Positions 23,041 through 47,186 of a DNA stretch of 64,000 bases are shown piece after piece (within the stretch, counting starts at the first letter, position 1; every line of letters starts with the position of its first letter). Source of the DNA: Candidatus Laterigemmans baculatus. GTDB taxonomy: Bacteria; Planctomycetota; Planctomycetia; Pirellulales; Pirellulaceae. The stretch covers positions 1 to 64,000 of the forward strand of contig NZ_WRPR01000033.1 of NCBI RefSeq assembly GCF_010367455.1. Direction: 5' to 3'. The translations under genes were made by a program, and so were the position numbers. The notes below the pieces were generated by a model. It saw only the letters and a list, made by a program, of their open reading frames with translations. It made no database searches and was not told the origin of the DNA.

Positions 23041-23042
23041 CT

Positions 23043-24095: not shown

Positions 24096-24116
24096 CGTGA
24101 ATCTCCTTGGGAGGGA

Positions 24117-25127
24117 TTATTCGTAGATTGGACAGAACGTGCCAAACGCCGATTCGCAAAACACGCCGGGGTCATTGAAGCGGCGATTGCGATTTAAGTT
24201 TGTCAGAGACTGCATCTCGCTGTCACTCAGCTCGAAATCAAACAGGTCGAGGTTCTCCGCCAGCCGTTCCGGTCGGGCGGTCTTGGGAACGACCGCCGTC
24301 CCACGCTGGACTCCCCAGCGGAGCACGACCTGGGCGGCCGTCTTGCCATGAGCCGCGGCGATCTCCCCGACGACCGATTCCGACAGTACCGACTCGTCCT
24401 CGCTCGCCATCCCCAGCGGAAGATAGGAACCGGCTCCGAGCGGCGAAAAACCGGTCACCGCGATTCCCTGCTGCTGGCAAAACCGCAACAGTTTTTCCTG
24501 AGTCAGATAGGGGTGCAGTTCGACTTGCAACATTGCCGGAGCGGTCGTCGCTGAAGCGATCAGATCGCGGAGCAAAGCGGTGTTGAAATTGCAGACTCCG
24601 ATGTTCCGCACGAGCCCGTCCCGTACCAGTTGTTCCATCGCCCCCCAGGTCTCGGCGATCGGGACCGAGGCCAGCTCCATTCGCGGCTCGGGGGCTTCGG
24701 GGTCATAGATCCATTCGGGCGGATAACGCTCGTCGAACGGAACGTAGCGGAGCGCGATCGGGAAATGGATCAGGTACAGATCTAAGTAGTCGAGTCGCAA
24801 ATCTTGCAACGATTTTTCGACCGCCGGCCGGACATGCTCGGCGGCGTGGTAGGTATTCCACAGCTTGGAAGTAATCCACAGCTCCTCGCGGCGACAGCGA
24901 CCCGCCTGCAAGACTCGCTCGAGTCCCTCGCCGACCTCGGCTTCGTTTCCGTAATCGGCGGCGCAGTCCAGATGGCGATACCCCTGGCTGACGGCCTGTT
25001 CGACGAGTCCCGCGACTTGCGGCTTGGGGATCTTCCACAGCCCCAATCCGACCGCGGGCATCTTCGCGCCGCCACGGAGTTCGAGTGTGGTCTCTTGAGG
25101 TCGATTCATGGTGGCAGTTTCATCCAT
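24117..25127 (-). CDS. Aldo/keto reductase
   Basis: A 336-residue NADPH-dependent reductase of the AKR (TIM-barrel) superfamily. The catalytic tetrad is in place: Asp54 and Tyr59 (HLDCAADYGNE), Lys88 (ITSKLW), His121 (LYLIHFPIAL). The cofactor segment VPKTARPERLAEN is present near the end. Substrate class is unknown. ATG 25127 is used; ATG 25109 is an alternative. It is the first gene of the operon with dioxygenase and MFS transporter, which suggests import or export and oxidation/reduction of one small molecule. Confidence 0.92.
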   Translation of the reverse strand: MDETATMNRPQETTLELRGGAKMPAVGLGLWKIPKPQVAGLVEQAVSQGYRHLDCAADYGNEAEVGEGLERVLQAGRCRREELWITSKLWNTYHAAEHVRPAVEKSLQDLRLDYLDLYLIHFPIALRYVPFDERYPPEWIYDPEAPEPRMELASVPIAETWGAMEQLVRDGLVRNIGVCNFNTALLRDLIASATTAPAMLQVELHPYLTQEKLLRFCQQQGIAVTGFSPLGAGSYLPLGMASEDESVLSESVVGEIAAAHGKTAAQVVLRWGVQRGTAVVPKTARPERLAENLDLFDFELSDSEMQSLTNLNRNRRFNDPGVFCESAFGTFCPIYE

Positions 25128-30351: not shown

Positions 30352-30440
30352 GGCGTAGCCAGGCTAGCGGCACAATCGAGGTGGTGGACAGTGCGAATTG
30401 TGGCAACTACCTTGGCTCGTCGAAAGTACAAGGGCCATCC

Positions 30441-31619
30441 ATGCGAATCGTGCGGTTCTCGATCTACCTCCTCCGGCTTCCCCTTCGCCACGAGATCAAG
30501 CACGCCTCGGCAGCCCGCAGCGACAGCGTCAACGTGCTGATCGCTTGCGACTTGGCCGACGGAACACGCGGCTGGGGCGAGGGCGTGCCGCGGTCCTACG
30601 TGACGGGCGAAACGCCTGTAGGGGTTGTTGAACAGCTGCGGGCAACCGATCTAGCCGCCCAGTGGAGCGACGACTGCGAATCCTGGCCGGACGTGATCGC
30701 GATGTGCGATCGCTTCGCGCCCGCGGCGGTTCGCGAGGATCCTCGCGGCTGTTATGGAAACGCCCTGCGATGCGCCGTCGAGCTCAGCGTGCTGGACGCG
30801 TTTGGCCAACGGTTCGGCGAGCCCGTGAGCCGCGTGACCGCCCACCTGGCATCGGCAGCAAATATCGCCACCACCCTTTCCACGGTTCGGTACTCGGGGG
30901 CCGTCACCGCCGCTTCGCCGCGCCGCGAAGCGACGAGCGCGGTAAAAATGCGGCTCTACGGCTTTCGCGACTGCAAGGTGAAGGTCGCGGTCGGGGGCGA
31001 CGAGGCGGCGCGGCTCCGACGTCTTCGCCGTTGGCTCGGCGGGCGAATGGTGATTCGGATCGACGCCAACGAAGGCTGGTCGGCCGACGTGGCGGCAAAG
31101 CAAATCGAGTCGCTCGCCCGCTACGGAATCGCCAGCGTCGAGCAGCCCGTGCGGCATGAAGAGGTCGACGCACTCGCCGAGATCCGCAAGCAAGTCGCCA
31201 CGCCGATCATGCTCGATGAATCGCTGACCGGAATGCAGGACGCCGAGCAGGCGGTGCGAACCCAGACCTGCGACTTGTTCAATATCCGCTTGTCGAAATG
31301 CGGAGGGTATCTCCACTCGCTCCGCTTAGCCGCCTATGCTCATCAGTCGGGCTTGGGCTACCAGCTCGGCTGCCACCCGGGCGAATCGCCGATCCTTTCG
31401 GCCGCCGGCCGTCATTGGGCCACGACCGTCCGCGATGTGAGGTTCCTGGAAGGCTCCTACGATCGCCACCTCCTGACGCGATTACTGACGCACGAAGACA
31501 TCACGTTTGGCTACGGAGGCCGCGCTGCGGCGCTGACTCGTCCGGGACTGGGCGTATCGGTCGATGCAAAAGCGCTCCGCGACTTGGCCGAGCCACAATC
31601 CGTGGTGGAGGTTTTGTAA
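30441..31619 (+). CDS. Enolase-superfamily racemase/epimerase (dipeptide epimerase-like)
   Basis: A 392-residue member of the muconate-lactonizing/dipeptide-epimerase group. Catalytic pair: Lys in KVKV (179-181) and Lys286 in RLSKCGGY. Metal ligands: Asp208 (RIDANEGWS), Glu234 (VEQPV) and Asp259 (LDESLTG). The N-terminal capping domain has KHASAARSDSVNV. Ala-Glu type dipeptide epimerisation is a guess from the KxK...D...E...D...K order; other racemase activities are possible. The frame opens far upstream at 30303, but ATG 30441 begins at the family's usual N terminus. It is followed without a gap by the alpha/beta hydrolase. Confidence 0.83.
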   Translation: MRIVRFSIYLLRLPLRHEIKHASAARSDSVNVLIACDLADGTRGWGEGVPRSYVTGETPVGVVEQLRATDLAAQWSDDCESWPDVIAMCDRFAPAAVREDPRGCYGNALRCAVELSVLDAFGQRFGEPVSRVTAHLASAANIATTLSTVRYSGAVTAASPRREATSAVKMRLYGFRDCKVKVAVGGDEAARLRRLRRWLGGRMVIRIDANEGWSADVAAKQIESLARYGIASVEQPVRHEEVDALAEIRKQVATPIMLDESLTGMQDAEQAVRTQTCDLFNIRLSKCGGYLHSLRLAAYAHQSGLGYQLGCHPGESPILSAAGRHWATTVRDVRFLEGSYDRHLLTRLLTHEDITFGYGGRAAALTRPGLGVSVDAKALRDLAEPQSVVEVL

Positions 31620-32465
31620 GTGCACTCCCCTGCCCCGCGGATCGAATCCTTCACCGCCACGGACGGCTACGCATTCGCATGCCGCCGCTGGGAGAGCGAT
31701 GCGCCGCGGGCAAACGTGGTGGTGCTGCACGGAATTATCAGCCACAGCGGATGGTATCTGAAAACCGGCGAGCATCTGGCCCAGGCCGGTTTCGCCGTCC
31801 ATGCCCTCGATCGCCGTGGCTCGGGATCGAATGGACAGGCCCGAGGGGATGTGGACCGTTATCCCACCTGGATCGCCGATGTCGAGCAGTACATCGAAGC
31901 GCTCGGGGACAACGTTCCGGTGCTGTTGGTGGGGATCAGCTGGGGTGGATTATTGGCGACCGCCGTGGCGCGGCGGCATCCCGAGCGGATCGCAGGGCTG
32001 GGGCTGATCTGTCCCGGTCTCTTCGCCCGAAAAGGGACCAGCGCGATTCAGTATTACGCCGTACGCACCGCCGCGCGGTGGGGGATGGCCAGCTGGCGGT
32101 TTCCGGTTCCCCTCCGCGATCCCCGGTTGTTCACCGACTCGCCCTCCTGGCAGGCCTTCATCCGCGACGATCCCGAGACGCTTCGCAAAGTGACGCTGCG
32201 ACTGGCCCGAGCGTCGGGCGAGTTGTACCTCGACACGGTTCGCGATCCCGAGTTGATCCGCGTGCCGACACTGCTGATGCTGGCTGGCAAGGACCCGATC
32301 ATCAAGAACGAGGAAGTCCGCGCCTTCGTCGAAAAGTTTTCCACGGGCCAGCAAACGATCCTCGAGTACCCCGAGGCGAGCCACACGCTGGAATTTGAAC
32401 CCGACCCGTCGAAGTATCTCAGCGATCTCGAAGCCTGGTGCCGAGCGGCAAGCGAGCGGCGTTAG
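31620..32465 (+). CDS. Alpha/beta hydrolase (serine aminopeptidase/lysophospholipase-like)
   Basis: A 281-residue hydrolase of the Hydrolase_4 (monoglyceride lipase-like) group. The oxyanion motif VVVLHGIISHSGWY is near residue 40, the nucleophile elbow VGISWGGLLA gives Ser107, and His255 is in EASHTLEF. There is no signal peptide. It starts with GTG directly after the TAA of the epimerase, so both are translationally coupled. Substrates could be lipid or peptide esters; the coupling to the epimerase suggests a cell-wall or peptide-fragment use, which is inference. Confidence 0.8.
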   Translation: MHSPAPRIESFTATDGYAFACRRWESDAPRANVVVLHGIISHSGWYLKTGEHLAQAGFAVHALDRRGSGSNGQARGDVDRYPTWIADVEQYIEALGDNVPVLLVGISWGGLLATAVARRHPERIAGLGLICPGLFARKGTSAIQYYAVRTAARWGMASWRFPVPLRDPRLFTDSPSWQAFIRDDPETLRKVTLRLARASGELYLDTVRDPELIRVPTLLMLAGKDPIIKNEEVRAFVEKFSTGQQTILEYPEASHTLEFEPDPSKYLSDLEAWCRAASERR

Positions 32466-32486
32466 CAGCGAGTCCTTTGAATTTTT

Positions 32487-32560
32487 ATCAGCCGCCGGGC
32501 GCTAGCCCCCGGTTGCCGAAAAGCCCGTGGGAACCGGACGCTAGCGCGTGGCGGCTGATT
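32487..32560. repeat. Palindromic repeat, CATCAGCCGC...CTAGCG family
   Basis: Arms ATCAGCCGCCGGGCGCTAGC and GGACGCTAGCGCGTGGCGGC then TGAT, with a GTTGCCGAAAAG-type centre, lie between two convergent genes (hydrolase and GH3). It could end transcription of both. Confidence 0.85.
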
Positions 32561-32595
32561 CCGCACAGTAAACCAACAGTCAACGGGATCACACC

Positions 32596-34278
32596 CTAGG
32601 CCGTCGAGGCGGGGGCGGGTAGCTGGGTGATGAAATCCTGATCATTGGTCAAACAGGGATGCTTGAACTGTTCGACACTGGCTCCGCGACGCGTGAGTGC
32701 TCGCCGGTGAAAGGCTCGCCAAGTTCCCGCTGGTAGTCGGCGGACGACCACGGGATCGAGTCTCCGCGTCGCGACTCGGTTTTCATACTCGCAGTTGACT
32801 TCCGCCAGACGCCGATCGACCGCGGCGGCGAGCCTTTGTTCGGATGCGGTGTCCATCGTCGATTCGATCAACAACTCGTAGTGGGGCGGATCGCCAAAGA
32901 CGGGGGCGAGGGTGAAGTGTTCGATGCGTTGACCGAGTTCTTTGAGCGAGTCGCGAACCGCGGTCACGACCTGGTGCTCGCTGAGCTTCTCGCCGGTCAT
33001 GCTCGAGTAGTGGGCACCCTTATTGAGAAACTCCAGAATGGGTGCCTGACCTTCAAAGCCGACGCAGCGGACGACGTCGTGAATATCGTGACGCCACAGA
33101 GCGCTCGACGTGGACATCACGAGGTAATAGTTCTGGTCGCGCTCCAGTTCGTGAGCCTCGAGGATCGTGGGGTTCGCCGATTCATGTTCTGCCTCTGGAA
33201 TGAACTCAAAGTACTGACTGCCGACGTCGAGAACCCCGGCCGGTGAGTTCGCTTCGAGCGGGATCGTCATCCGGCCCTCGCTGGCCGAGAGCCCGTGGTC
33301 GCGAAACGTGACGTCGCCAAAATAATCTTGTACTTGAGGGAGGTAAGCGGCGACCGATCCACCGGTCCAAACAGCCAGCACCGCGAGTTGCTTCCAGTAA
33401 TCGCGCGGCCAGAGGTGGCCGGTTTGCTCGACGATCTTTTCGAGCGCTCGAGCCCGTTTGGGATGGGCCCGATCAAATTGTCGCTGGAGCCGTTTGCGGA
33501 CTTCCTCGGGGAGCTGGACGTTGCGGTCGAGAGTCCCGTCATGGATGTCGCGAATCAACGTATCGCGTCGCTCGTCTCCGAGCCGCGCCAGGCCGATCAG
33601 GGTGAGCGGGTTGGCGGTGATGAGGATGCCGACGTTTTCCACCGGCATCGCCAGACGCAGCGCCGTGTACTGCTTCGATTCGGCGTCGGGAATCTTGTTG
33701 AGCGCGGTCGGCAAGCAAAAGATGAGATCCGAAACGGCCGGGCGGGTTTCCGCGGCTAGCCCGCTGATGTTGCCACAGTAGAAACCGCCCTCGGTTCGCG
33801 TCTGCTGCCAATCGCTGCTGAACTGCAGCGTCTTGGTCCGCAGCAGTTCCGGGTGTTGGTGGTAGGTCCGCATGCCCCACACGTTCCAGCCCCGGCGATA
33901 CTCTTGGAAAAAGTGGTTGGTGATCGGGATGTACTTCGACTCGCTGGTCGTGCCCGAAGTCATTGCGAACATCAGGACTTTGGTGTCCGGACCGAACATG
34001 GCCCGGACGTCTCCCTGCTTCACGCGTTCCACGTACGGCCGAAAGTACTCGTAGTCGGTCAGCGGAACGTGGCGGCGGAAATCGGCGATCGTTCGGATTT
34101 GGTCAAACCGGTGGTCGCGACCAAAATCGCTGTCCATCTCGCGGCGAAGCTTGGAGAACAGCACCTCGCGCTGCAGTTCCGCCGCCCGCTTTGCGCTCGC
34201 TAAGAAGCGACGGACTTCGCGTTGGCGGAGACCGACGTAGGCTCGCAAACCGAGGGCGGTGCTGGTGGTTTTAAGCAT
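32596..34278 (-). CDS. GH3-family acyl-acid amido-synthetase homologue
   Basis: A 560-residue member of the GH3 (auxin-responsive promoter) family, an ANL-fold adenylating enzyme; plant members join acyl acids to amino acids through an acyl-adenylate. Adenylation-loop motif FAMTSGTTSESKYIPIT is at about residue 110, the SASEGRMTIPL element (aromatic-SEG) near residue 325, and LWRHDIHDVVRCVGF with EFLNKGAHYSSMTGEKLSE near the end (the family's nucleotide- and phosphate-contacting part). The length is normal. It starts 24 bases after the PKS stop, on the same strand, so it is the second gene of the PKS operon. The substrate pair is unknown; conjugation of the PKS product is inferred. Confidence 0.85.
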   Translation of the reverse strand: MLKTTSTALGLRAYVGLRQREVRRFLASAKRAAELQREVLFSKLRREMDSDFGRDHRFDQIRTIADFRRHVPLTDYEYFRPYVERVKQGDVRAMFGPDTKVLMFAMTSGTTSESKYIPITNHFFQEYRRGWNVWGMRTYHQHPELLRTKTLQFSSDWQQTRTEGGFYCGNISGLAAETRPAVSDLIFCLPTALNKIPDAESKQYTALRLAMPVENVGILITANPLTLIGLARLGDERRDTLIRDIHDGTLDRNVQLPEEVRKRLQRQFDRAHPKRARALEKIVEQTGHLWPRDYWKQLAVLAVWTGGSVAAYLPQVQDYFGDVTFRDHGLSASEGRMTIPLEANSPAGVLDVGSQYFEFIPEAEHESANPTILEAHELERDQNYYLVMSTSSALWRHDIHDVVRCVGFEGQAPILEFLNKGAHYSSMTGEKLSEHQVVTAVRDSLKELGQRIEHFTLAPVFGDPPHYELLIESTMDTASEQRLAAAVDRRLAEVNCEYENRVATRRLDPVVVRRLPAGTWRAFHRRALTRRGASVEQFKHPCLTNDQDFITQLPAPASTA

Positions 34279-34302
34279 GAGGCGGTCGTTCAGTCGCTGA
34301 CG

Positions 34303-37300
34303 CTAGAGGAGAACCGAGCGCGAGCTGTCGAGCGTATGCACATCGGCCGGAACGGTCGAGTCGAGGTGACGGCCAATCGTCTCGGCGAGCTGTTGCCCGT
34401 GCCGACCGGTCAGCATGCTGAAGTGGTCTCCACCGACCCGCTCGATTTCCAAATCTTCGCCGAGGATCGGACCCCAGCCGAGATCATCGCCCAAATGCCG
34501 GCCGGTGGCCAGGCTCAAGACGGCTGATTGCTTGGGGCGGTACATTCGAATCCGCTGTCCGAGCGGCTGCACTTGGTACGCCAGCGCCGCGCGGAGGTGG
34601 GCTCGGCAGAGTTCGATCCGTCGCTGCAGATCGCTCCGCGTCGTCCCCTCCGGAAGCACTCGCTGCTGTTTCATCTCCCGCAAAATCCGGTCCGTGGCTT
34701 GATCGGGTTGCATCGCCTTGAGCTCCGCATACTCGATCCGCATCTTGGCCCCGGAGAACCAGTTCGAGAAGTTGACCAAATCGTGCAGGAAGCGGGCATC
34801 GTCGCTGAGGTCGACCCCCTGCAGGATCTCCGACGTCGGCGTGTCGATGAACAACAATTCGACCGCGTGCCCCGCGGCCTTCAGCTGACGAGCGATCTCG
34901 TAGGCGAAGATCCCGCCGGTCGACCAACCGCTCAAGAGGTAGGGCCCCTGGGGCTGCGCGGAGCGGATCAGCTCGGCGTACTCCTCGGCCATCTCCTCGA
35001 CACTCTCGTGCGGCACCGTCCCGGCGTCGGCTCCGCGAGGACGGATCGTTGTCACACAGCGGCTGCGACCAAGGTGCTGGGCCAGATCGCGGTAGCAGCG
35101 GAGGTCGCCGCCGACCGGGTGCAGGCAGTACAGGGCCGGAAGTGCCGCTTGCGTCTGCAGCGGCACGAGCGAAGAGCCCCCCTTCGAAGTGGAAACCGAG
35201 GCCGTCGATCCGGGTGCGTCGTCGTCCAACGCCTCTCCGAGCCCTTCGCCGGTCAGCGAGGCGAGCATCGTGCCGGTGATCGAGGCAATGCTCGGACGCT
35301 CCATCAGCGCCGCCATCGGCAGCTCGATGTCGAGCTGGGCTTCGAGGTTCGTCTTCAGCTCCATCGCCATCAGCGAGTCGACTCCGACCACATTCAGCAG
35401 CTGTTCGGGATCGAGATCCGCGGGGTCCATTCCCATGATCCGGGCCAGCTCGGCAGTCAAATAATTCTGCAACAGCGGTTGCTGCTCCTCCGCCGCGGTC
35501 GCAGCGAACCGGCCGAGGAATTCGCGATCGACCTTCCCCGGGTCGCCCGCCGCGGCTGGGTCTTCCCACTGCGAGGCAAAGGCTTCGAAGAGCGGTGGGC
35601 GGCGGCGCGGGAACTGACGCGCCAGAGCCGACCAATCGACGTCCATCACGGCCAGCTGAACCGGAGCCGACTCGGATTCCTTGAGCAGTCGGTCGAGAAT
35701 CGAGAGGCACGCCTCCGGGTCGAGCAGCCGCATCCCGCGATCGCTCAATTGGCTATCGGGGTCGGCGGTCACGGCCATGCCCCCTTCGGCCCACGGACCC
35801 CAGTTGATCGCGGTCGCGGGCAAGCCGCGCGACCGCCGCAGGGCAGCCAGCCCGTCCAGGAACGCGTTCCCCGCAGCGTAATTCGCTTGCCCCGGTGAAC
35901 CCAGCACCGCGGCGATCGAAGAGAACAGCACAAAGAAGTCGAGCGGCTGAGTCTGCGAGAGCGCGTGCAGGTTCCAGGCTCCCTGCACCTTCGGCCGCAA
36001 CGCCCGCTCGAGTTGCTCGAGCGACATGTCGTACAGCAATCCGTCGGCGAGCGCACCGGCGGCGTGGAGGATCCCGCCGAGCGGTGGGAAGTCGGCTGGA
36101 ATCTGAGCCAGTGCGCCTTCGAGCGATTTGCGGTCCGCCACGTCCGCCTGCAGGCACGCCACCCGCGTTCCCGGCGGCAACTCGGCCAACCGTCGCTGCT
36201 GGTCGTCGCTCGGCGAGCGGCGGGAGAGGAGCAGCAGGTGGCGCGCTCCCTGCTCGGCCAACCACTGGGCCAACCGCAACCCGAGGGCTCCGAGACCGCC
36301 GGTGATCAGATAGCTCGCTTCGGCATGGATCGTCGGCTTCCGCTCGCAAACCGCCGCGGCGGGGCGGTCCTGCGGCGAGAGCGAGACGACTACTTTGCCA
36401 ATGTTCTTCCGCTGGGCCATGTAGCGGAAAGCGGTCGCGGTCTCGGGGGCCGCAAACGTCTTGTGCGGCAGCGGACGATAAACCCCCTGCTCGAACAACT
36501 CCATCACTTCGCTGAACAGCCGGCGGATGTCGTCGGGTCGCTGGCGCAGCATTCGGTCGAGATCGATCGCCGAATAAGAAAGATTGTCTTGGAACGGCGC
36601 CAGCCCAATCATCCGGTCCTGATAAATGTCGGTCTTACCGATTTCCAGAAAACGCCCGTAGGCCGCCAGAATCGAGAGGCTCTTGGGAATCACATCGCCC
36701 GGGAGCGAATTGAGGACGACGTCGACGCCGTAGCGATCGGTCGCGTGGAGAATTTGATCGGCGAATTCGAGAGTGCGGGAATTGAAGACGTGGGACACGC
36801 CGAGCGAGGCGAGGAACTCCCGCTTCTCATCGCTGCCGGCGGTCGCGAACACTTCGGCACCGACGTGCTCGGCAATCTGAATCGCCGCTTGGCCCACTCC
36901 GCCGGCCGCGGCGTGGATCAAGACGCGTTCGCCTCGCCCGAGCCGGCCCAACCAGCGAAGTGCGTAATGGGCCGTCAGGAACGTGATCGGAATCGTGCTC
37001 GCCTCGTCGTGCGAAAGCGATGCGGGTTTGCGGGCGAGCGCGTACTCGGCGGTCACCGCATGGCTGGCAAAACTCGACGGCGCGACACCCATGACTTCGT
37101 CGCCCACGCGAAAGCGAGTGACCTCCGAGCCGACGGCCGTGACCACCCCGGAGCACTCGATCCCAAGCGGCGGTTCCTGATCGGTCAATCCCGGGTAGAG
37201 CCCCATCGCTTTGAGTACGTCGCTGAAATTCAAACCGGCACTGTGGACCTCAATCGCGACTTGATCGGGAGCGAGCTTGGGAAGTTCGAACGACGCGTAG

Positions 37301-40300
37301 GCCAAGGCATCGAAGCTGCCCGCTTCCCGCGAGCGAAGCCGGAACGGCGCGGCGGGCAGTCGCAGTTCACGTCGCTTCCCACCCTCGGCATCTTCGCCGC
37401 TGGCGGCGTCACCGAAGCGGGCTTTCACCAAGCGGGCGGCATAGCGGATCGCGTCCTGAGTTTCCGTCGCCCGGAACGCCACCTGGTCCTCTTGCTCTCC
37501 CTGCTCCTTCGCCGAAACTTGCCTGGTCGCTGCGGCAACGAGTTCGCCGAGCAGCCCCGCGGCCCCCTCGGCGTCGCTGGCCTGTGGATCGAGGTCGATC
37601 AACCGAACGCCGCCCCCCACCGACTCGAGCGCGGCGGTGCGGCCCATGCCCCACACGGCCGCTTGCAGCGGATCCACCTCGGTCGCGAGAGTCTCCTCTG
37701 CGGCCTGATTGGTGACTTGTTCTGCAACCTGTTTTGGCGAGATCGCCTGGAAACCTTGGGTGCAGAGCCAAATCGGTGGCGGTGAGCGGAACGGGCCGCG
37801 GACGGTTTGCCGAAGGAGCTGCATCGCTCCCCCCAGCACCCGCCGCGAAGCCTGCTCCAAGTCGTCGCCGTGGGAGCCGCCGCGAGAATCGCCGTGGAAA
37901 TCGCCGAGGCTCGCCAGGTGCACGATCCCCGACCACGACGCCGACGAGGCTTCCGAGGCCGCTGCGGTTTCGAACGCTCGTGCGTAGTCGTCGCTCGAGA
38001 GCGGATCGATTTCGAACGTATCGTCATCGAGCTGCGCAAACCGGTCCGCCGAGCGGAGCAGCACGCAGCGGCCACCCTGGTGGCGAATCGCAGCGGCCAA
38101 TTCCGTCGCTACGCTCGAGCGAGAGGGAGCCGTCACGATCCAGCGTTGGCCCGCGCACCGCTGGCCCGCGCCCGGCTGGGGCTCGGCGAGCGTCGACTCG
38201 GGCGACTCGAGGGGGGCTTCCTGCCAATCGAGCTGGTAGAGCCACTCGGCCGCGTCTCGGGTTCGCGGGGCGGTCGCGCCGAGCGACTGGACGCGGACCT
38301 GCTCGAGTTCGGCCAGCACGTGACCGTCGGCGTCGAGCAACGTCACGTCGCCGTGGAGCGTCTCGAGCGGAGAATTGTCAGCCGAGTCACTGCGCCGCAC
38401 CTCGATACGGGCCGCCCGCAGCGGATCACCGAGCAAGCGGAAGCGGCCGATCGCGGTCGGCAGGTAGAGGCGATTCGAGGGAGTGCCATCGGCGGCCAGC
38501 GGAACGAGGCCGGCCATCGCCTGCAGGCAGCCGTCGAGGATCGCCGGGTGGATCCGATGCTGCGAGCTCTCCTGGCGGACGCTTTCGGTCATTTGCAGTT
38601 CGGCGACCGCGCCATCGTCGCCGCGGCGGAGCTCGTCAATCACGCGGAACCGGGGGCCATAATCGAGTCCGCACTGCCGCATCCGCTCGTAGAACTGCTC
38701 GCCGCTGATCACCATCGGGTACCGCGTGCTCGAGGCGTGACCGTTGGTTCCCGCGAACCCCGTCGTGTGCAAGCTCTGAGTGGCGGTCGCGGCGGCGCTC
38801 GCGGGAGAGGCGCCGGACGATCCGCGGGCCAGTTTCCCGTAGGCGTGCATCGTCCACGCGTCGCGGTCGTTCGACTCGGCCGGTCGGCTGTGAATGCGGA
38901 ACGAGCAGCTTTCGGTGGGCTCCTCCGACGTGGTGAACTGGACGTGCCGCGAGGCGTCGGTCGGCAAGAACATGGCTTGCTGGATCGAGACGTCGCTGAC
39001 CGTGTGCGTGCCGGCGCCGAAGAGGGCATCGGCAGCGGCGAGAGCTTGCTCGAGATAGGCCGCCGCGGGAGTGACGGCGGAGCCTTGGACGCGGTGCTCG
39101 CTCAGGTACCCCGGGGCGTGCTCCTCAAGAAGGGTTTCAAACAGCCGGGTCTTGAAGGTTGTGGCGACTTCCGCGCCGAGCAGCGGATGCAGCCCGGAGC
39201 GGGACCGCGAGTCGCCGCGCGCGGTGGAATTGGGGCCGAGTCCACCGAGCCCGCGGCACTGGCCCGCTTCGTCGTACCAATGCCGCTTGCGTTCGAAGCG
39301 ATATCCGGGGAGCACCAGCTTGGCGGGAGCCGGACTGCCATAGATCTGCGACCAGCGGATGTTGGCACCGCGGCTGTAGAGCTCGGCGAGGCTGCCGGTG
39401 AGTACCTGCCAATCTCCCTGGCCGGCTCGCAGCGACGGCAGCCAGCCGGTCGTGGGGCGGTCGATGAATTGGCGGCCCATCGCCAGCAGCGTCGGCGAAG
39501 GTCCCGCCTCGAGCACGAAGTCCGGTTCGGTTTCGAGGAGCGTTCGCATTCCTTGCTCGAACCGCACGCTGCGGCGGAGGTGCTCCCGCCAGTAGCGACC
39601 GTCGGGCGGTTGTTGCAGCCAGTCGCCGGTGAGGTTCGAGACCACTGGCACTCGCGGCGAACGGGCGGGGATCGCTGCGGCAAAACGCTCGAAGTCGTCG
39701 AGCACCGCGTCCATCAAGTGCGAATGGAAGGCGTGGGAGACGGGCAGGAATTTCGCCTTGAGCCCCTCCGCGTTGCATCGCTCGACGAATCGTTCGACAG
39801 CCCCGCGGTCGCCGGAGACGACGGTGTTTGCCGGCCCATTGAAGGCGGCGATCTCGATCGACTCGGCTTCGCCCGGGCCACTCTTGCTCCGCCCGTTCTC
39901 GAGCTGCCGAGGGGCCGTGGCGGCGCCGTTGATTTGGCCATTGGTCCGCGTGGGGCCGGCTCCGGCGATTCTCGCTTCGGCCAACATCCGCTCGACCGTC
40001 TCACCCGACGCGGCCACCGCCGCCATCGCGCCATCACCCGAGCAGTCCTGCATCAGGCGAGCCCGCTCGGCGATCAACCGCAGCCCATCTTCGAGCGTGT
40101 AGACATCGGCCAGCGTCGCGGCCACAAACTCGCCGACGCTGTGACCGAGCAGGGCCGACGGCTCGATTCCCCATGACCGCCAAAGCTGAGCCAGCGAGTA
40201 TTCGATGGCGAACAGCGCGGGCTGGGTGTAGAGCGTTTGATGGATCCGCTCGTCGTCCTCGCCCGCGTGCATGATCTCCAGGATCGATGCCCCCAGCGGT

Positions 40301-42096
40301 TCGCGAAGCAGCGCGTCGCAGCGCTCGAGCGTGTGGCGAAAGAAGGGCTGGGTCGCGAACAGCTCCCGCCCCATTCCCAGGTACTGCCCACCCTGGCCGG
40401 TGAACACGAACGCAACTTTCGGTGCGCGAAATCCGCGGCGGTGCCGAGCCTCGTCCGCTTCATCTACTCTCGACTCGGCCAATTCCCGCAGCTTGTGGAG
40501 CATCCGCGGAGGATCGGCGGCGGCGACCGTCACTCCGTAGTGGAAATGGTTGCGGCCGCTGTTGGCTGAAAAGCAGAAGGCGTCGAGGTCGGCGTTGGGG
40601 TGCTGCTCGAGATAGTCGGCGTACTGCTCGGCGATTCGCTGGAGGGCCGAAGGCGTTTTGGCCGAGACGGCGAGCAACTTGACGGGCGGCGTCGCGGGGA
40701 GCGGAGCGGGCTCGGGCAGCGTGGCCTGTTCGAGCACCATGTGGGCGTTGGTCCCACCGAAGCCGAAGCTGCTGATGCCAGCTCGCCGCGGTCCGCCGGC
40801 CGAGTGCCAAGGCATCCGCTCTTGCGCGATCCGCAACCGCCCCTTTCCGAGCGTGATGTGCGGGTTCAGCTCGGCGAAGTCGGCCTGCGGAGCGAGTTCG
40901 CCAGCCTGCATCATCAGCACAACTTTGATCACGCTGGCGATGCCCGCAGCCGTTTCGAGGTGGCCGATGTTGGCTTTGACCGAGGAAAGGTAGCACGGTT
41001 GGCTGCTGCTCGGTCCTTCGTAAACTTGCCGCAGCGCCTCGAGCTCGATCGGGTCACCGAGCGGCGTCCCGGTGCCGTGAGCTTCGACGTACGAGACCGC
41101 GTCGGGATCGAGCCCCGCTTGCCGGAGCGCGGCTTGGATCACCGCGACCTGCGACTGGCTGTTCGGCGCGGAGATTCCCGAAGTCCGTCCGTCCTGATTG
41201 ACTGCCGTTCCGCGGATCGTCGCCAAAATTCGGTCGCCATCGGCAACCGCATCGCTCAATCGCTTGAGCACCACCACTCCGGCTCCCTCGCCACGAACGT
41301 ACCCATTGGCTCGCGAGTCGAAGGGGCGGCAGTGGCCGTCGGGAGAAAGCATCCCCGCCTTGGAAAACGCCAACGTCGCTTCCGGCGATAGCATCAAATT
41401 GACGCCGCCAGCGACCGCCAAGTTGGCTTCGCCGTTCTGCAGATTTTTGACCGCCAGGTGAAGCGCCACCAAGGCCGACGAGCAGGCGGTATCGACGCTC
41501 ATGCTCGGCCCATGCCAGTCGAAAAAGTAGCTCATCCGGTTGGCCGCGATGCTCAGCGCGTTGCCGGTTCCCGAATGGACGTCGATCTGGCCGTAGTAGT
41601 CGTCGAAGTGGAAGGGAACTTTGGCGTAATCGGCCGCACCGATGCCGACGAACACGCCGGTGGTCGAGCCGGCCAATCGCTCGGGTGCCAGCCCGGCGTG
41701 CTCCAAGGCTTGCCAGGTGACCTCCAAAAGCAACCGCTGCTGGGGGTCCATCTTGGCCGCTTCGCGAGGCGAGATCCCAAAGAAATGGGCGTCGAACTGG
41801 TCGATCGCGTCGAGAAAACCGCCGAAACGACCGCACCGGGCCGCCTGCTCGGAGCTTCCGGCGGCCGCAGCGACCTGCTCCGCGTCCCATCGCTCGGCGG
41901 GAAGCTCGCCGATCGCCCGCCGCCCGGCGGAGATCAACTCCCAGTACGATGCGAGGTCCGCCGCCCCCGGAAAACGGCAGCCGAGACCAATAATCGCCAC
42001 CGGTTCGGCGACCGGAGCGGTTTCCTCGAGTTGACGCTGGAGCAGTTGCAGTCGGTGCGGTGAAAGTCGCGCGAGGCGTTGGGCCAAATCGATCAC
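34303..42096 (-). CDS. Type I polyketide synthase, KS-AT-DH-ER-KR-ACP-TE
   Basis: A 2597-residue one-module, fully reducing PKS. KS: DTACSSALVALH (Cys about 204), EAHGTGTPLGDP (His about 339), KANIGHLE. AT: GHSVGEFVAA (Ser about 652) and HAFHS (about 788), the pattern for malonyl-CoA. DH: HRVQGSAVTP (about 1000) and DGCLQ (about 1188), both catalytic motifs intact. ER: NADPH-binding HAAAGGVGQAAIQ (about 1732). KR: TGGLGALGL (about 1933) with an active-site SS...Y in FSSIAAVLGSPGQANYAAGN; the LxD motif at HAAGALADG suggests B-type. ACP: GVDSLMAMEL (Ser about 2240). TE: SGWSTGGIFA (Ser about 2390), GGDHFSML (His about 2557). About 35 residues are inserted in the AT. The start is GTG 42096; the upstream gap is a divergent promoter region shared with the FAAL gene. 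Confidence 0.95.
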   Translation of the reverse strand: MIDLAQRLARLSPHRLQLLQRQLEETAPVAEPVAIIGLGCRFPGAADLASYWELISAGRRAIGELPAERWDAEQVAAAAGSSEQAARCGRFGGFLDAIDQFDAHFFGISPREAAKMDPQQRLLLEVTWQALEHAGLAPERLAGSTTGVFVGIGAADYAKVPFHFDDYYGQIDVHSGTGNALSIAANRMSYFFDWHGPSMSVDTACSSALVALHLAVKNLQNGEANLAVAGGVNLMLSPEATLAFSKAGMLSPDGHCRPFDSRANGYVRGEGAGVVVLKRLSDAVADGDRILATIRGTAVNQDGRTSGISAPNSQSQVAVIQAALRQAGLDPDAVSYVEAHGTGTPLGDPIELEALRQVYEGPSSSQPCYLSSVKANIGHLETAAGIASVIKVVLMMQAGELAPQADFAELNPHITLGKGRLRIAQERMPWHSAGGPRRAGISSFGFGGTNAHMVLEQATLPEPAPLPATPPVKLLAVSAKTPSALQRIAEQYADYLEQHPNADLDAFCFSANSGRNHFHYGVTVAAADPPRMLHKLRELAESRVDEADEARHRRGFRAPKVAFVFTGQGGQYLGMGRELFATQPFFRHTLERCDALLREPLGASILEIMHAGEDDERIHQTLYTQPALFAIEYSLAQLWRSWGIEPSALLGHSVGEFVAATLADVYTLEDGLRLIAERARLMQDCSGDGAMAAVAASGETVERMLAEARIAGAGPTRTNGQINGAATAPRQLENGRSKSGPGEAESIEIAAFNGPANTVVSGDRGAVERFVERCNAEGLKAKFLPVSHAFHSHLMDAVLDDFERFAAAIPARSPRVPVVSNLTGDWLQQPPDGRYWREHLRRSVRFEQGMRTLLETEPDFVLEAGPSPTLLAMGRQFIDRPTTGWLPSLRAGQGDWQVLTGSLAELYSRGANIRWSQIYGSPAPAKLVLPGYRFERKRHWYDEAGQCRGLGGLGPNSTARGDSRSRSGLHPLLGAEVATTFKTRLFETLLEEHAPGYLSEHRVQGSAVTPAAAYLEQALAAADALFGAGTHTVSDVSIQQAMFLPTDASRHVQFTTSEEPTESCSFRIHSRPAESNDRDAWTMHAYGKLARGSSGASPASAAATATQSLHTTGFAGTNGHASSTRYPMVISGEQFYERMRQCGLDYGPRFRVIDELRRGDDGAVAELQMTESVRQESSQHRIHPAILDGCLQAMAGLVPLAADGTPSNRLYLPTAIGRFRLLGDPLRAARIEVRRSDSADNSPLETLHGDVTLLDADGHVLAELEQVRVQSLGATAPRTRDAAEWLYQLDWQEAPLESPESTLAEPQPGAGQRCAGQRWIVTAPSRSSVATELAAAIRHQGGRCVLLRSADRFAQLDDDTFEIDPLSSDDYARAFETAAASEASSASWSGIVHLASLGDFHGDSRGGSHGDDLEQASRRVLGGAMQLLRQTVRGPFRSPPPIWLCTQGFQAISPKQVAEQVTNQAAEETLATEVDPLQAAVWGMGRTAALESVGGGVRLIDLDPQASDAEGAAGLLGELVAAATRQVSAKEQGEQEDQVAFRATETQDAIRYAARLVKARFGDAASGEDAEGGKRRELRLPAAPFRLRSREAGSFDALAYASFELPKLAPDQVAIEVHSAGLNFSDVLKAMGLYPGLTDQEPPLGIECSGVVTAVGSEVTRFRVGDEVMGVAPSSFASHAVTAEYALARKPASLSHDEASTIPITFLTAHYALRWLGRLGRGERVLIHAAAGGVGQAAIQIAEHVGAEVFATAGSDEKREFLASLGVSHVFNSRTLEFADQILHATDRYGVDVVLNSLPGDVIPKSLSILAAYGRFLEIGKTDIYQDRMIGLAPFQDNLSYSAIDLDRMLRQRPDDIRRLFSEVMELFEQGVYRPLPHKTFAAPETATAFRYMAQRKNIGKVVVSLSPQDRPAAAVCERKPTIHAEASYLITGGLGALGLRLAQWLAEQGARHLLLLSRRSPSDDQQRRLAELPPGTRVACLQADVADRKSLEGALAQIPADFPPLGGILHAAGALADGLLYDMSLEQLERALRPKVQGAWNLHALSQTQPLDFFVLFSSIAAVLGSPGQANYAAGNAFLDGLAALRRSRGLPATAINWGPWAEGGMAVTADPDSQLSDRGMRLLDPEACLSILDRLLKESESAPVQLAVMDVDWSALARQFPRRRPPLFEAFASQWEDPAAAGDPGKVDREFLGRFAATAAEEQQPLLQNYLTAELARIMGMDPADLDPEQLLNVVGVDSLMAMELKTNLEAQLDIELPMAALMERPSIASITGTMLASLTGEGLGEALDDDAPGSTASVSTSKGGSSLVPLQTQAALPALYCLHPVGGDLRCYRDLAQHLGRSRCVTTIRPRGADAGTVPHESVEEMAEEYAELIRSAQPQGPYLLSGWSTGGIFAYEIARQLKAAGHAVELLFIDTPTSEILQGVDLSDDARFLHDLVNFSNWFSGAKMRIEYAELKAMQPDQATDRILREMKQQRVLPEGTTRSDLQRRIELCRAHLRAALAYQVQPLGQRIRMYRPKQSAVLSLATGRHLGDDLGWGPILGEDLEIERVGGDHFSMLTGRHGQQLAETIGRHLDSTVPADVHTLDSSRSVLL

Positions 42097-42153
42097 GTGG
42101 AGCCAAAATCCTCGGTTGGGGAGCTATTTGCCTGGGGCGAACCGCGATGCGTC

Positions 42154-42182
42154 GTCAAGATTTAGCAGTTGGGAAGTATAAT
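42154..42182 (+). promoter_or_regulatory. Possible sigma-70 promoter for FAAL gene
   Basis: A perfect TATAAT (42177-42182) is seen in an otherwise GC-rich spacer, about 107 bases upstream of the FAAL start. A -35 element at about 42154-42160 (GTCAAGA) is weak. It sits in the shared divergent region with the PKS gene. Confidence 0.4.
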
Positions 42183-42289
42183 CGGATCAGGCAGAACGTT
42201 CCACGCGGCGCGGATTGCCGGCCCCAGTAGCGGGGGCTAAGATCGGATCCAAAACACTATACGCGTTTCAACCGGTTGTATTGAAGTCG

Positions 42290-44644
42290 ATGGCGTCCAC
42301 TGAGTTCTCCCCGCCCCGCCCCGCCGATGCCCGTTCGATCGGCGACATTATCGATTATTGGGATCAGCTGCATGCGGGACACCCGGCGCTGATTTTTTTG
42401 GACGACGAGCAGGGGGAACGCGTCACCACCTATGGCGAGCTGAAACGGCAAGCGATCGCGCTGGCCGCCGAGCTGCGGGAGGTGTGTCAGCCGGGCGACC
42501 GTGCCATCTTAATCTTCCCTCCTGGCAAGGAATTTGTCACCGCGTTTCTCGGCTGCTTGTACGCCGGTGTGTTGGCCGTTCCGGCGACCGAGCCCAAACC
42601 GCGCCGCCCGAACGACCGGCTCTCGGCGGTCGCTGAGGATTGCGATCCCCGAGCCGTGCTCTGCAAGCGCGAGATGCTCGAGCGGATCGAGATTGCCGTC
42701 GTCTGCCCGCGATTGGCCGAAGTCCAGTGGATCCATGTCGACGAACCGGCCGCCTCGGCCCAAAGCCCTTCGGACGCTCTACCCACCAGCGAAGCCGTGC
42801 AGGGGCTCCCGGCGCTCGAACCCTCATCACTGGCGTTCCTGCAGTACACCTCGGGCTCGACGAGCGATCCCAAGGGAGTGGCGATCTCGCACGGCAACTT
42901 GCTGCACAATTTGGAGATGATCCGCCACGGGTTTGGACGCCACTTTAACTTCGACTCCGACCCCAAGATGCTCGGCGTTTTCTGGCTGCCGCCGCATCAC
43001 GACATGGGATTGATCGGCGGCATTCTGACTCCGCTGTACCTCGGCGGCACGACAGTGGTGATGTCGCCGGCGAGCTTCCTCAAGCGGCCGCTCAAATGGC
43101 TCGAAGCGATCTCGCAGTATCGAGGCTTGATCTCCGGGGCCCCGAACTTCGCCTACGAGCTGTGCGTCCAGCAGCTTCGCAAGTCGCCCCCCGCGGAGCT
43201 CGATCTCTCCTGCTGGGACATTGCTTTCTGCGGAGCCGAACCGATCCGGGCCGCGACGATCGACCGCTTCTGCGAAGCCTTTGAGCCGTACGGTTTCCGC
43301 CGCGACTCGTTTTATCCCTGCTACGGCATGGCTGAAGCGACGCTGCTGGTCAGCGGCAACATCGGGCGGCGCGCTCCGACGATCAAAACCGTCGACAGCG
43401 AGGCGCTGCAGAATCATCGCGTCCGCGCGCCGGCGGCCGAAGAAACTGGCGGCGGGGAGGCACGCGGCGAAGCGGCTGGGGGCGGGGAACCGCAAACGGG
43501 TGCGGCGCGGGGCGTCGCCCGGTTGGTCGGCTGCGGCGGACCGATGCTGAGCGGGGAGTTGTTGATCGTCGATCCGGCCACTCGGATGCCCGCGGCGGCC
43601 GATGAAGTTGGCGAGATCTGGTACCGCAGCGAGAGCGTCGCGCTCGGCTACTGGAATCGACCGGAGCTTTCTCAAAAAGCATTCCGCGCTCCGCTGGCCA
43701 GCGGCGAGGCGGGGCTCTACCTCCGCACTGGAGACATGGGGTTTTTCGAGGACGGCCAGCTGTACGTGACGGGGCGGCTCAAGGAGATGTTGGTCATCCG
43801 CGGCCGCAATCTCTATCCCCAGGATCTCGAAGCGACCGCCACGGCCGCCGATCCGGCCCTCCCGAGCTCGTCCGCCGCGGCCTTCTCGGTGGAGATCGAT
43901 GGGGCGGAACAGTTGGTGCTCGCCCAGGAGCTCGATCGCAACCAGAAGGAGAGCAATTACGACGAAGTGATTCGGCGGCTTCGCAATGCGCTGATCCAAA
44001 CCTACGACGTCAGTCCCGCCGCCGTGCTGCTCGTCCGCCCGTTCAGTCTGCCGCGGACGACGAGCGGCAAAATGCAGCGGATCCTCTGTCGTCAGCTGTA
44101 CCTCGAAGGCCAGCTCAAAGTGCTTGCCGAGTGGAAAGCGGCACCGCGGCCCGCGGCCGAATCGATTCCCGAGCCGAAGCCGGATCTGGCGGTCTTCCCG
44201 GCCGGGGCGAACGCCTCCGAGGGAGCGCTCGAAATCAAACTCAGCCACCTGGCCGAGGAGATCGAGCAGTGGCTGCTCTCGTGGCTCGGAAGGCACGGAA
44301 CGGTCAGCGGCGATGAGGTCGCGCCGGACCGGCCGCTCGCCGATTTCGGGCTCGACTCGCTGACCGCCGTGGAGCTCGCGACGCAGATCGAGGAGCGGTA
44401 CGACCTGACGCTCAATCCGATCATCGTCTGGAATTACCCAACGCCCCGCCATCTGGCTCGCTATCTAGCCGGCCAAATCGACGAGGGGTTCCAGGCGGCG
44501 GTCCCGCAGGGCCCCTCGGGTCGAATCGGTTCGCGGTTCGAAGCGATGCTGCGGGAAGTCGAGGAGCTCGACGAGCGGGAGGTTCTGCGGCGGATCGGCC
44601 ACGGCGCCGCGGCGGCCGAGGCTTCGCACCCGCAGCAGGCATGA
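42290..44644 (+). CDS. Fatty-acyl-AMP ligase fused to acyl carrier protein
   Basis: A 784-residue protein. Residues about 1-630 are an ANL adenylating domain of the FAAL type: LQYTSGSTSDPKGVAISHGN (P-loop, about 187), FWLPPHHDMGLIGG, YGMAEATLL, and YLRTGDMGFFEDGQLYVTGR followed by LKEMLVIRGRNLYPQDLE. A short low-complexity Gly/Glu-rich loop sits near residue 385. FAALs activate fatty acids as adenylates and pass them to an ACP, not CoA. The C-terminal ACP has DFGLDSLTAVELA with Ser690 as the phosphopantetheine site. ATG 42290 starts the family N terminus; there is no strong Shine-Dalgarno. It is divergent from the PKS and overlaps the SBF gene by four bases. Confidence 0.92.
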   Translation: MASTEFSPPRPADARSIGDIIDYWDQLHAGHPALIFLDDEQGERVTTYGELKRQAIALAAELREVCQPGDRAILIFPPGKEFVTAFLGCLYAGVLAVPATEPKPRRPNDRLSAVAEDCDPRAVLCKREMLERIEIAVVCPRLAEVQWIHVDEPAASAQSPSDALPTSEAVQGLPALEPSSLAFLQYTSGSTSDPKGVAISHGNLLHNLEMIRHGFGRHFNFDSDPKMLGVFWLPPHHDMGLIGGILTPLYLGGTTVVMSPASFLKRPLKWLEAISQYRGLISGAPNFAYELCVQQLRKSPPAELDLSCWDIAFCGAEPIRAATIDRFCEAFEPYGFRRDSFYPCYGMAEATLLVSGNIGRRAPTIKTVDSEALQNHRVRAPAAEETGGGEARGEAAGGGEPQTGAARGVARLVGCGGPMLSGELLIVDPATRMPAAADEVGEIWYRSESVALGYWNRPELSQKAFRAPLASGEAGLYLRTGDMGFFEDGQLYVTGRLKEMLVIRGRNLYPQDLEATATAADPALPSSSAAAFSVEIDGAEQLVLAQELDRNQKESNYDEVIRRLRNALIQTYDVSPAAVLLVRPFSLPRTTSGKMQRILCRQLYLEGQLKVLAEWKAAPRPAAESIPEPKPDLAVFPAGANASEGALEIKLSHLAEEIEQWLLSWLGRHGTVSGDEVAPDRPLADFGLDSLTAVELATQIEERYDLTLNPIIVWNYPTPRHLARYLAGQIDEGFQAAVPQGPSGRIGSRFEAMLREVEELDEREVLRRIGHGAAAAEASHPQQA

Positions 44645-45573
44645 GCGCGGGCTCCTTGTTCGAGGCGTTTCTCCGCATCGAAGGGATCCTCGCGGCGCTG
44701 CAGCTCGTGCTGGCGATGCTCGGCATGGGAGCGACGCTCGAGCTGGACGATTTCCGCCAGATCGCTCGCCATTACCGTGCGATCGGCTTGGTACTGGTCG
44801 CCCAGTTCCTGCTCGGGCCGCTGGCGGCCGTTGCCGCCGGAGCGTGGCTGCCGTTGCCCGAAGGTGTCGTGCTCGGCGTGATTCTGCTCGCCGTGATGCC
44901 GAGCGGCGCGATGTCGAACATCTTTGCCCATCTCGGTAACGGCAACCTTCCGCTGTCGATTACCGCCACGGTGGCTTCGACGCTGACGTGTTTGGTCTTC
45001 ACGCCGCTGCTGTTGGGCGTGATCGTCGAGGCGGCGATCCCGGCGGGCTTTCAGATGCCCACCGGGCGGATCGTTCGCGACGTCGCTCTTTTTCTGCTCT
45101 TGCCGCTGCTGGGCGGGATGTGGGTCCGCCGCCGCTCGCCGCGAAGCTCGCTCCGCTTCGCCCGGTGGACGGTTCGCTCGAGTTTGGCGGTCTTGGCGGT
45201 GATCGTCGTCGGCTCGCTCGGCAGCGGACGGATCGACGTCTGGAGCTATGGTTGGACGGTGCCGGTGATTTTGGTCGGGTTCGTGTTTGTGCAGTTCGTC
45301 GCCGCGCGGCTTCTGACGCTCGCCTTCCGCTACTCGGCCCGCGATTCATACACCTTGGCGATCGAGGTGGCGCTGCGAAACGGGAACCTGGCGATCCTGC
45401 TCAGCAGCACGCTGTTTGCCGGAGCGATGGCTGGTGCTTCGGCCGAAAAAGCGGAAGACCTGGGAGCCGGTGCACTCTACGTGGCGCTCTTTTACGGCGG
45501 GGCTTCGCTCGGGATGGCGATCCTCGCCGTGATGGTCGAGCGGTACTGGGAGCGGCGACAACTCACTCGATGA
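44641..45573 (+). CDS. SBF/bile-acid:Na+ symporter family transporter
   Basis: A 310-residue protein with about nine to ten membrane helices. The SBF fold is supported by LAMLGMGATLELDDFRQI and LAVMPSGAMSNIFAHLGNGN (the conserved substrate/cation region with NGN-like turn) in the N-terminal half, and AIEVALRNGNLAILL in the C-terminal half. SBF proteins move bile acids, pantoate or other organic anions. Here it overlaps the FAAL-ACP stop by four bases (ATGA), so it is very probably translated with it and may carry a precursor or product of the cluster. Confidence 0.85.
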   Translation: MSAGSLFEAFLRIEGILAALQLVLAMLGMGATLELDDFRQIARHYRAIGLVLVAQFLLGPLAAVAAGAWLPLPEGVVLGVILLAVMPSGAMSNIFAHLGNGNLPLSITATVASTLTCLVFTPLLLGVIVEAAIPAGFQMPTGRIVRDVALFLLLPLLGGMWVRRRSPRSSLRFARWTVRSSLAVLAVIVVGSLGSGRIDVWSYGWTVPVILVGFVFVQFVAARLLTLAFRYSARDSYTLAIEVALRNGNLAILLSSTLFAGAMAGASAEKAEDLGAGALYVALFYGGASLGMAILAVMVERYWERRQLTR

Positions 45574-46963
45574 AGTCGCGGATGAAAAACCCAAGCACGG
45601 CTCCGGCCAGCAAAGCCAGCGGAATCGCGACCGACAGACTGACGGCGACCCGCGTCCACACGCTCCGCCCGCTGAGTCCCGGCGCGCTGCTCCAGTTGGG
45701 CGGATAAAAAGTCTCCGTCGGCGCCGCATCCCACATCGGCATCGCGTGGGCCGGACCGTCGACGATCGTTCCCTGGTCGCTCGACTGCGAGCGCTCCGTG
45801 TCGTGCGACGAATCGCCGTCGAGGGCGGCCGAAGAGCCTTGCGGCAATGGGGGGCCGGCATCTTCGGCAGGCGGTGGCGGTGCAGTCCAGGCGCGCGGAG
45901 TCAGCGGCCGGGCGATCGGCTCAGAGAGCGATGCTGCCCAAGGTTCCAATCGCTCCGCCACTTCGGCCGCCGAGCCGATCCGCCGGGCCGGATCCTTGTC
46001 CATCATGTCGGCGATCAGCTCGACGAACTCCTCGCTCGTCTCGGGAGCGAATTTGCGCGGGTGCCAGGGCGTGTCCTCGCAGTGGCGGCGGCATTTCGAC
46101 GCCACGTCGCCGCCCGGGTAGGGAACTTTGCCGCAGATCGTGTAGTAGAGGGTGCAGCCGAGCGAATAGATGTCCGAAGCGGGGCCCACTTCGCGGGGGC
46201 TGCGGATCTGTTCGGGAGAGAGGAAGTCGGCCGTGCCCACGATCTTGCCAGCCCGCGGATCGTCGCCGAGGGCCGTCGCCCAAGCGGCCAGTCCGACGTC
46301 GGACACCTTGGCCACGCCATCGGGGCGAACCAAAATGTTGCCCGGCTTCACGTCGCGGTGGATCAGCCCTTGCTCATGCGCGTAGGCGAGCCCCAAAGCG
46401 GCTTGCATGACGATCGCCGCCGCTTCCTCGACCGGCAGCATGCCCCGGCTTCGCACCAACCGCCGAAGGTCGGTTCCCGGCACGTACTCGGTGACCAGGA
46501 AATGGACGTTGCCGTCTCGCCCGGCGTCGAACGCCCGAACCAAATACTGGCAATCGAGTCCCGCCTGCAGACGAATCTCTCGCAGGAAACTTTCGCGGGC
46601 CTCCTCGGTGGCTTTCTCCAGCGGCAGCACCTTCACCGCGCACTGCCGCCCCATCACGTTGTGCACCGCTTTGAAGACCTGCCCCATGCCTCCTTGCCCG
46701 ATCCAGTCGGTGATCAGGTAGGGACCGAGGTTCAGTTTCGTCCGGCCGCCGCGGAGCTGGGCGCACTGGTAAGGAGTCAGGGTCCCGCTCCGCACCAGCC
46801 AGCGGCCGATCGCTTCGTCCGAGCCGTGCCGAGTTTCTTCGACCGCTTCGGTCCACTGTTCGGCCGTTACCAATCCGCTGCGAAGAGCCGCTGCGTGAAA
46901 GGTCGAGTGCGCCTTGGCGGCTGGCGATTTCGAGTCGCGTGAGCTGGTCGAACGCTGTGCCAC
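45563..46963 (-). CDS. Ser/Thr protein kinase with C-terminal membrane helix
   Basis: A 466-residue Hanks-type kinase common in planctomycetes. The N-terminal 60 residues form a small domain (EQWTEAVEETRHGSDEAIGRW and SGTLTPYQCAQLRGG) seen before kinase domains in this phylum. The kinase has GQGGMGQVFKAVH (Gly loop, about 85), AVKVLPLE (Lys), HRDVKPGNILV (catalytic Asp about 203) and SDVGLAAW, so the usual DFG is DVG. The APE-like element is SPEQI. A Pro-rich linker leads to a single C-terminal helix (VAVSLSVAIPLALLAGAVLG). The frame opens to a TTG at 47167 inside a repeat; GTG 46963 is preferred. It overlaps the SBF gene's end by 11 bases on the other strand. Confidence 0.86.
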   Translation of the reverse strand: MAQRSTSSRDSKSPAAKAHSTFHAAALRSGLVTAEQWTEAVEETRHGSDEAIGRWLVRSGTLTPYQCAQLRGGRTKLNLGPYLITDWIGQGGMGQVFKAVHNVMGRQCAVKVLPLEKATEEARESFLREIRLQAGLDCQYLVRAFDAGRDGNVHFLVTEYVPGTDLRRLVRSRGMLPVEEAAAIVMQAALGLAYAHEQGLIHRDVKPGNILVRPDGVAKVSDVGLAAWATALGDDPRAGKIVGTADFLSPEQIRSPREVGPASDIYSLGCTLYYTICGKVPYPGGDVASKCRRHCEDTPWHPRKFAPETSEEFVELIADMMDKDPARRIGSAAEVAERLEPWAASLSEPIARPLTPRAWTAPPPPAEDAGPPLPQGSSAALDGDSSHDTERSQSSDQGTIVDGPAHAMPMWDAAPTETFYPPNWSSAPGLSGRSVWTRVAVSLSVAIPLALLAGAVLGFFIRDFIE

Positions 46964-47081
46964 AATCAAATTTCCGGCGGGCCTGCGGGCAAAATGAAAA
47001 AACGGAACTCCTTCACCAGTATAGCGCGCCAAACGGAAACTGGCCCACGCTTCTGCTGGGGGTGGGCAGGGATAGAATTGG

Positions 47082-47186
47082 CAACCACGAATCGCACGAA
47101 TTGCACGAATAGGGACAGGCAGCAGGATCGGAAGCGCCTTCCTTCCCACCTCTCTCCATTCGTCCAATTCGTGTGATTCGTGGTTG
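47082..47186. repeat. CACGAAT-type inverted repeat
   Basis: The left arm CAACCACGAATCGCACGAAT and the right arm ATTCGTGTGATTCGTGGTTG pair with few mismatches around about 65 bases. It lies upstream of the kinase gene. Confidence 0.8.

Follow-up and report, generated by a model that had tools for sequence, protein, structure and literature searches.

A conserved polyketide synthase–GH3 locus in Candidatus Laterigemmans baculatus, a candidate pathway for exported N-acyl amino acid lipids in planctomycetes

The genome of Candidatus Laterigemmans baculatus contains a real, conserved and apparently uncharacterized biosynthetic locus, which spans about 28.0–45.6 kb (positions 28027–45573) of the analyzed window, a stretch of 64,000 nucleotides, and whose FAAL, PKS, TE, GH3 and MMPL functions probably build a lipoamino acid (an N-acyl amino acid) and export it. 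What supports this reading is the assignment of the enzymes to their families, their intact catalytic motifs, and the synteny and co-occurrence of the genes; the substrates, the amino acid, the order of the late steps, the number of PKS cycles and the direction of transport are inferred. A preliminary description had reported four genes of the locus, namely GH3, PKS, FAAL-ACP and an SBF transporter, and their existence and positions in the window are borne out by coordinates and Pfam matches. The cluster extends beyond these four genes, as Pfam identified an MMPL exporter, an enolase-superfamily enzyme and an alpha/beta hydrolase in the window, which synteny places in the cluster. All three had been missed, and more relatives keep them alongside GH3 than keep the SBF gene.

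The PKS gene (34303–42096, minus strand) encodes a protein of 2597 aa with the Pfam domain order KS-AT-DH-ER-KR-ACP-TE and intact catalytic motifs (DTACSSAL, EAHGTGT, GHSVGEF, HRVQGSAVTP, GVDSL and GWSTGG). Domains and motifs thus agree with the single fully reducing type I module with a TE that had been proposed; the AT motif HAFH is of the malonyl type, and orthologs from syntenic loci show 47–54% identity. The GH3 gene (32596–34278, minus strand) lies downstream of the PKS stop codon at the reported distance of 24 bases and is the only one of its kind in the source genome. On the opposite strand, the FAAL-ACP gene (42290–44644, plus strand) encodes AMP-binding and C-terminal PP-binding carrier domains (Pfam). 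Its best PDB matches are FAALs (7r7e, 3kxw, FadD23 and FadD32) with E-values of 1e-151 to 1e-61, versus 1e-23 or weaker for acyl-CoA ligases, and by sequence comparison the predicted protein is closest to the former rather than to the latter. The stretch that separates the divergent PKS and FAAL genes (42097–42289) has the previously described length of 193 bases if the ATG in position 42290 is the FAAL start codon; a TTG farther upstream (42215) is an alternative start.

Two transporter genes flank this core. The MMPL/HAE3-family RND-type exporter, a candidate lipid exporter (28027–30351, minus strand), matches the Pfam MMPL domain with 105 bits at a cut-off of 20.5, as well as NCBIfam HAE3, and is syntenic in G038, G054, L046, L049, L051 and L052. 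The SBF/BASS-family transporter gene (44641–45573, plus strand; Pfam SBF, NCBIfam bass and a weak similarity to PanS) overlaps the end of FAAL-ACP by four bases. It had been given a core part in the pathway; it was found solely in the window and in one relative, G038, a distribution that rules it out as a core gene, and it is probably accessory. A Ser/Thr protein kinase gene (45563–47167, minus strand) marks the right edge of the cluster. Farther to the left (15467–25127), OEP and HlyD efflux components, an aldo/keto reductase and a TauD-type dioxygenase are encoded on the minus strand of the window; the GH3 clusters of related genomes showed none of these genes.

In the proposed pathway, FAAL would adenylate a fatty acid and load it onto its own ACP, and the single-module PKS would take over this chain and add fully reduced malonyl-derived C2 units, probably in an iterative manner. 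The TE would free the chain as an acid, which GH3 would adenylate and then amidate with an amino acid. This order of release and conjugation, already suggested in the preliminary description, fits known GH3 chemistry, in that OlsH, a planctomycete GH3 protein, uses ATP to couple ornithine with free fatty acids (PMC12493201). In loci with a type II ketosynthase system (see below), a hydrolase gene precedes GH3 in the same place as the TE domain in type I loci, an equivalence that is consistent with free-acid release prior to amidation. Of the remaining enzymes, the enolase-superfamily protein would probably racemize or epimerize the alpha-carbon of the N-acyl amino acid, while the monoacylglycerol lipase (MGL)-like hydrolase may add or remove a second acyl group, by comparison with OlsI, an alpha/beta hydrolase that O-acylates in ornithine-lipid synthesis (PMC12493201). 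The MMPL protein would export the product, and SBF may serve as an optional organic-anion carrier.

The same chemistry could also end in a secreted signal or a small polyketide–amino acid conjugate, a jasmonate-type analogue, instead of an envelope lipid. Plant relatives of GH3 conjugate small acids, SBF and MMPL could carry small amphiphiles, and the distribution of GH3 in the family is patchy, with four carriers besides the source among 100 genomes. However, medium or long acyl chains are the usual substrates of FAALs, the MMPL exporter and the MGL-like hydrolase suggest lipids, and the type II version of the locus is widespread in other families; we regard a small conjugate as rather unlikely.

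The GH3 protein has all three Pfam GH3 domains (GH3, GH3_M and GH3_C; PF03321, PF23571 and PF23572) above cut-off. In a four-member alignment of its clade the TSGTT and SASEG motifs are invariant and IHD forms the third motif. It also keeps the serine equivalent to S115 of OlsH, shown to be essential in that enzyme, and its solved relatives in the PDB are plant GH3 structures. Judged by domains and nucleotide-binding motifs, it is an acyl-acid amido synthetase, with ATP-dependent amidation as the predicted activity. A scan of viral contigs for GH3 gave no match.

The presence of GH3 and an alpha/beta hydrolase in one planctomycete locus, together with weak matches of both proteins to the OlsH and OlsI models, would accord with a version of the ornithine-lipid pathway for which the PKS and FAAL are no more than suppliers or neighbors. 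The scores, however, are 111 bits for GH3 at a curated cut-off of 620 (NF052613) and 23.3 bits for the hydrolase at a curated cut-off of 385 (NF052614). In the GH3 tree, OlsH is set apart by a very long branch outside the clade of the present GH3, although the exact placement of OlsH and of the distant GH3s joined by such branches is unsure. Moreover, Singulisphaera acidiphila possesses both OlsH and a member of the present GH3 clade, and deletion of OlsH alone blocks LOL, OL and TMOL (PMC12493201). Membership in the OlsH and OlsI families was ruled out by model scores and tree, and an ornithine-lipid pathway of this kind appears improbable.

The gene for the enolase-superfamily enzyme (MR_MLE, MLE subgroup; 30441–31619, plus strand) has an ATG start that was placed by alignment. 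The protein matches Pfam MR_MLE_C, and the KxK motif, three acidic metal ligands and second catalytic Lys typical of the MLE subgroup (K225xK227, D254, E280, D305 and K332, numbered from the ORF start at 30303) are invariant in 29 orthologs. The AlphaFold model of this protein has a pLDDT of 93, and N-succinyl-Arg/Lys racemase (2p88) ranks first in the PDB by both sequence and fold, with fold Z-scores of 45.7 for racemases and 44.8 for muconate cycloisomerases forming a near tie within one Z unit. The comparison of folds does not tell these two groups apart; the protein is probably an N-acyl-amino-acid racemase or epimerase. The adjoining gene (31620–32465, plus strand), syntenic beside the racemase-like gene, encodes an alpha/beta hydrolase (Pfam Hydrolase_4) of the monoacylglycerol-lipase fold; its top Foldseek matches are monoacylglycerol lipases (TM about 0.85), making it a candidate lipase or O-acyltransferase.

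Racemase-like orthologs with at least 57% identity are present in exactly the same five of 100 family genomes as GH3 orthologs. Across the phylum, 66 of 393 genomes possess GH3 and 59 the racemase-like gene, with both found in 53, the racemase-like gene alone in six and GH3 alone in 13. The corresponding odds ratio is about 218, counted over related and thus not independent genomes, for which reason the Fisher p-value is no true probability and overstates the case. In many complete genomes the two genes are megabases apart, which shows that their association does not reflect synteny alone. The next-best racemase-like match in the family has 32% identity and is found in genome G020 beside a divergent GH3. 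There, a separate operon (L030:6017-10088) combines a fatty-acid hydroxylase, the divergent GH3 and the MR_MLE enzyme with 2-base gaps between genes; this operon supports a GH3–racemase partnership outside the present GH3 clade.

Alternatively, the enolase-superfamily gene and the hydrolase could serve in the breakdown of aromatics, as muconate cycloisomerase and enol-lactonase, or in menaquinone synthesis (MenC/MenH), and lie beside GH3 and PKS without functional connection. The best NCBIfam model of the enzyme is indeed muconate cycloisomerase, far under its cut-off, and the near tie of structural Z-scores points the same way. Against this, the orthologs track the presence and absence of GH3 even when unlinked, and the hydrolase is MGL-like. 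The MenC role was ruled out, since the ortholog is missing from 95 of the 100 genomes in the family, as no core gene of menaquinone synthesis could be. We give an unconnected pair of this kind little credence.

Among the relatives, G038 possesses all seven genes in unchanged order, G054 has MMPL, FAAL, PKS, racemase-like, hydrolase and GH3 genes in a rearranged order, and both G007 and G083 retain the hydrolase, racemase-like and GH3 genes, accompanied in G007 by the PKS. Synteny was also observed in named Pirellulales, e.g., Neorhodopirellula, Aporhodopirellula and Rhodopirellula rubra, and the GH3, racemase-like and hydrolase genes recur jointly in several planctomycete lineages. The preliminary description had named a lack of conservation in related genomes as grounds for rejection; PKS, FAAL-ACP and GH3 are kept together across genera, and the objection therefore falls away. 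In most of the type I genomes examined, FAAL homologs are neighbors of the PKS, as read from coordinates (G000, G038, G054, G101, G103, G108, G487, G488, G489 and G491). In G107 and G007 they are 26–44 kb away from it, and in G007, G107, G490 and G492 the search revealed no FAAL adjoining the GH3-linked PKS. An ApbA-like reductase, an ATP-grasp-like protein and an OleD-like SDR are frequent in related clusters and are lacking locally in the window. In the source genome, an ATP-grasp-like homolog with 37% identity is encoded on another contig, and a search for the ApbA-like gene returned a marginal match only. Within the PKS of Neorhodopirellula pilleata (L047:2229-9971), the usual matches to the AT, DH and KS-His motifs are absent and the FAAL, GH3 and hydrolase genes are retained. 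In an ALOHA Pirellulales MAG, the cluster includes a gene for a HetI-like phosphopantetheinyl transferase (L054:14966-15739).

Named genomes were scanned for relatives of this GH3, and 80 of 246 were kept for analysis; nearly all of the 80 come from genomes named as planctomycetes, a few from genomes titled just 'bacterium'. Ketosynthase systems are located near GH3 in 59 of the 80 loci: a type I PKS in 14, and in 45 a type II set (FabZ-ACP-FabZ-KS-KS-hydrolase) composed of FabA/FabZ-like dehydratases, an ACP, sometimes a KR, two FabF-like KS proteins and an alpha/beta hydrolase directly before GH3. In the type II pairs, the His motif is regularly present in the second KS and absent from the first, as in KS/chain-length-factor pairs. 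That GH3 and PKS are chance neighbors from unrelated processes is scarcely credible and largely already refuted by these loci and the recurrent racemase–hydrolase pair, the rearranged order in G054 and the non-conserved SBF gene notwithstanding. The racemase-like and hydrolase genes accompany both type I and type II loci; GH3 loci of the Gemmataceae type usually have no racemase-like gene nearby. The GH3s linked to type I and type II systems form two separate clades (SH-aLRT 98 and 99), so GH3 keeps a dedicated acyl-chain builder while the type of builder varies.

The type II version, a parallel arrangement in other families that had also been missed, is widespread in relatives (L060, L065, L081, L106, L107 and others) and apparently uncharacterized; its gene set there comprises FabZ, KR, ACP, FabZ, a CLF-like KS, KS, a membrane-anchored hydrolase and GH3. 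In L046, L049, L051 and L052, each cluster has two GH3s of different subclades, the first next to the PKS and the second on the far side of MMPL, which could add two different amino acids or serve two steps. As a tentative generalization, which we hold with clearly less confidence than the local pathway, the phylum may share a module in which a dedicated builder (type I PKS plus FAAL in some families, a type II KS pair in others) would feed GH3 and then an enolase-superfamily racemase, leading to lipids for export whose amino acid headgroup has the D configuration.

Bacterial GH3s are numerous, and OlsH is the only one found characterized in the literature searched. A review of planctomycete metabolites published in 2025 describes one study that targeted a predicted cluster, a type III PKS. 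Literature searches returned no paper on GH3 joined with a PKS cluster in bacteria (one unrelated plant paper was retrieved) and none on planctomycetes, type I PKS and FAAL together. The earlier statement that no characterized pathway has this gene set therefore holds for the literature searched, but the GH3 step has a published planctomycete precedent. The tie of a whole GH3 lineage to dedicated acyl synthases and an enolase-superfamily enzyme predicts a family of planctomycete lipoamino acids, which could be sought in cultured hosts such as Neorhodopirellula pilleata, Aporhodopirellula, Rhodopirellula rubra and the genetically tractable S. acidiphila.

The nearest characterized pathway is OlsH/OlsI of Singulisphaera acidiphila, where likewise a GH3 protein N-acylates an amino acid and an alpha/beta hydrolase is encoded nearby in a planctomycete host, whereas no PKS, FAAL, racemase or MMPL is described there and the GH3 lineage is distinct. 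FAAL-PKS-MMPL combinations are familiar from mycobacteria, e.g., FadD23-Pks2-MmpL8 for sulfolipid, in which a FAAL likewise serves a fully reducing, iterative single-module PKS along with an MMPL-type exporter, a likeness also reflected in NCBIfam matches. In contrast to that system, the present AT motif is malonyl-type rather than methylmalonyl-type, a TE is present, and the released chain would be joined by GH3 to an amino acid instead of being passed to trehalose. The pathways for stieleriacine and other N-acyl tyrosines also yield N-acyl amino acids in Pirellulaceae, but the report on them is centered on N-acyl amino acid synthases (NAS), and its main text contains neither the word GH3 nor the word polyketide (PMC12479983). 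Finally, the enolase-superfamily enzyme has 2p88 as its closest solved structure and the catalytic residue pattern of N-succinyl-Arg/Lys and N-acylamino acid racemases, from which it differs by an identity of about 25% and by its location in a lipid cluster.
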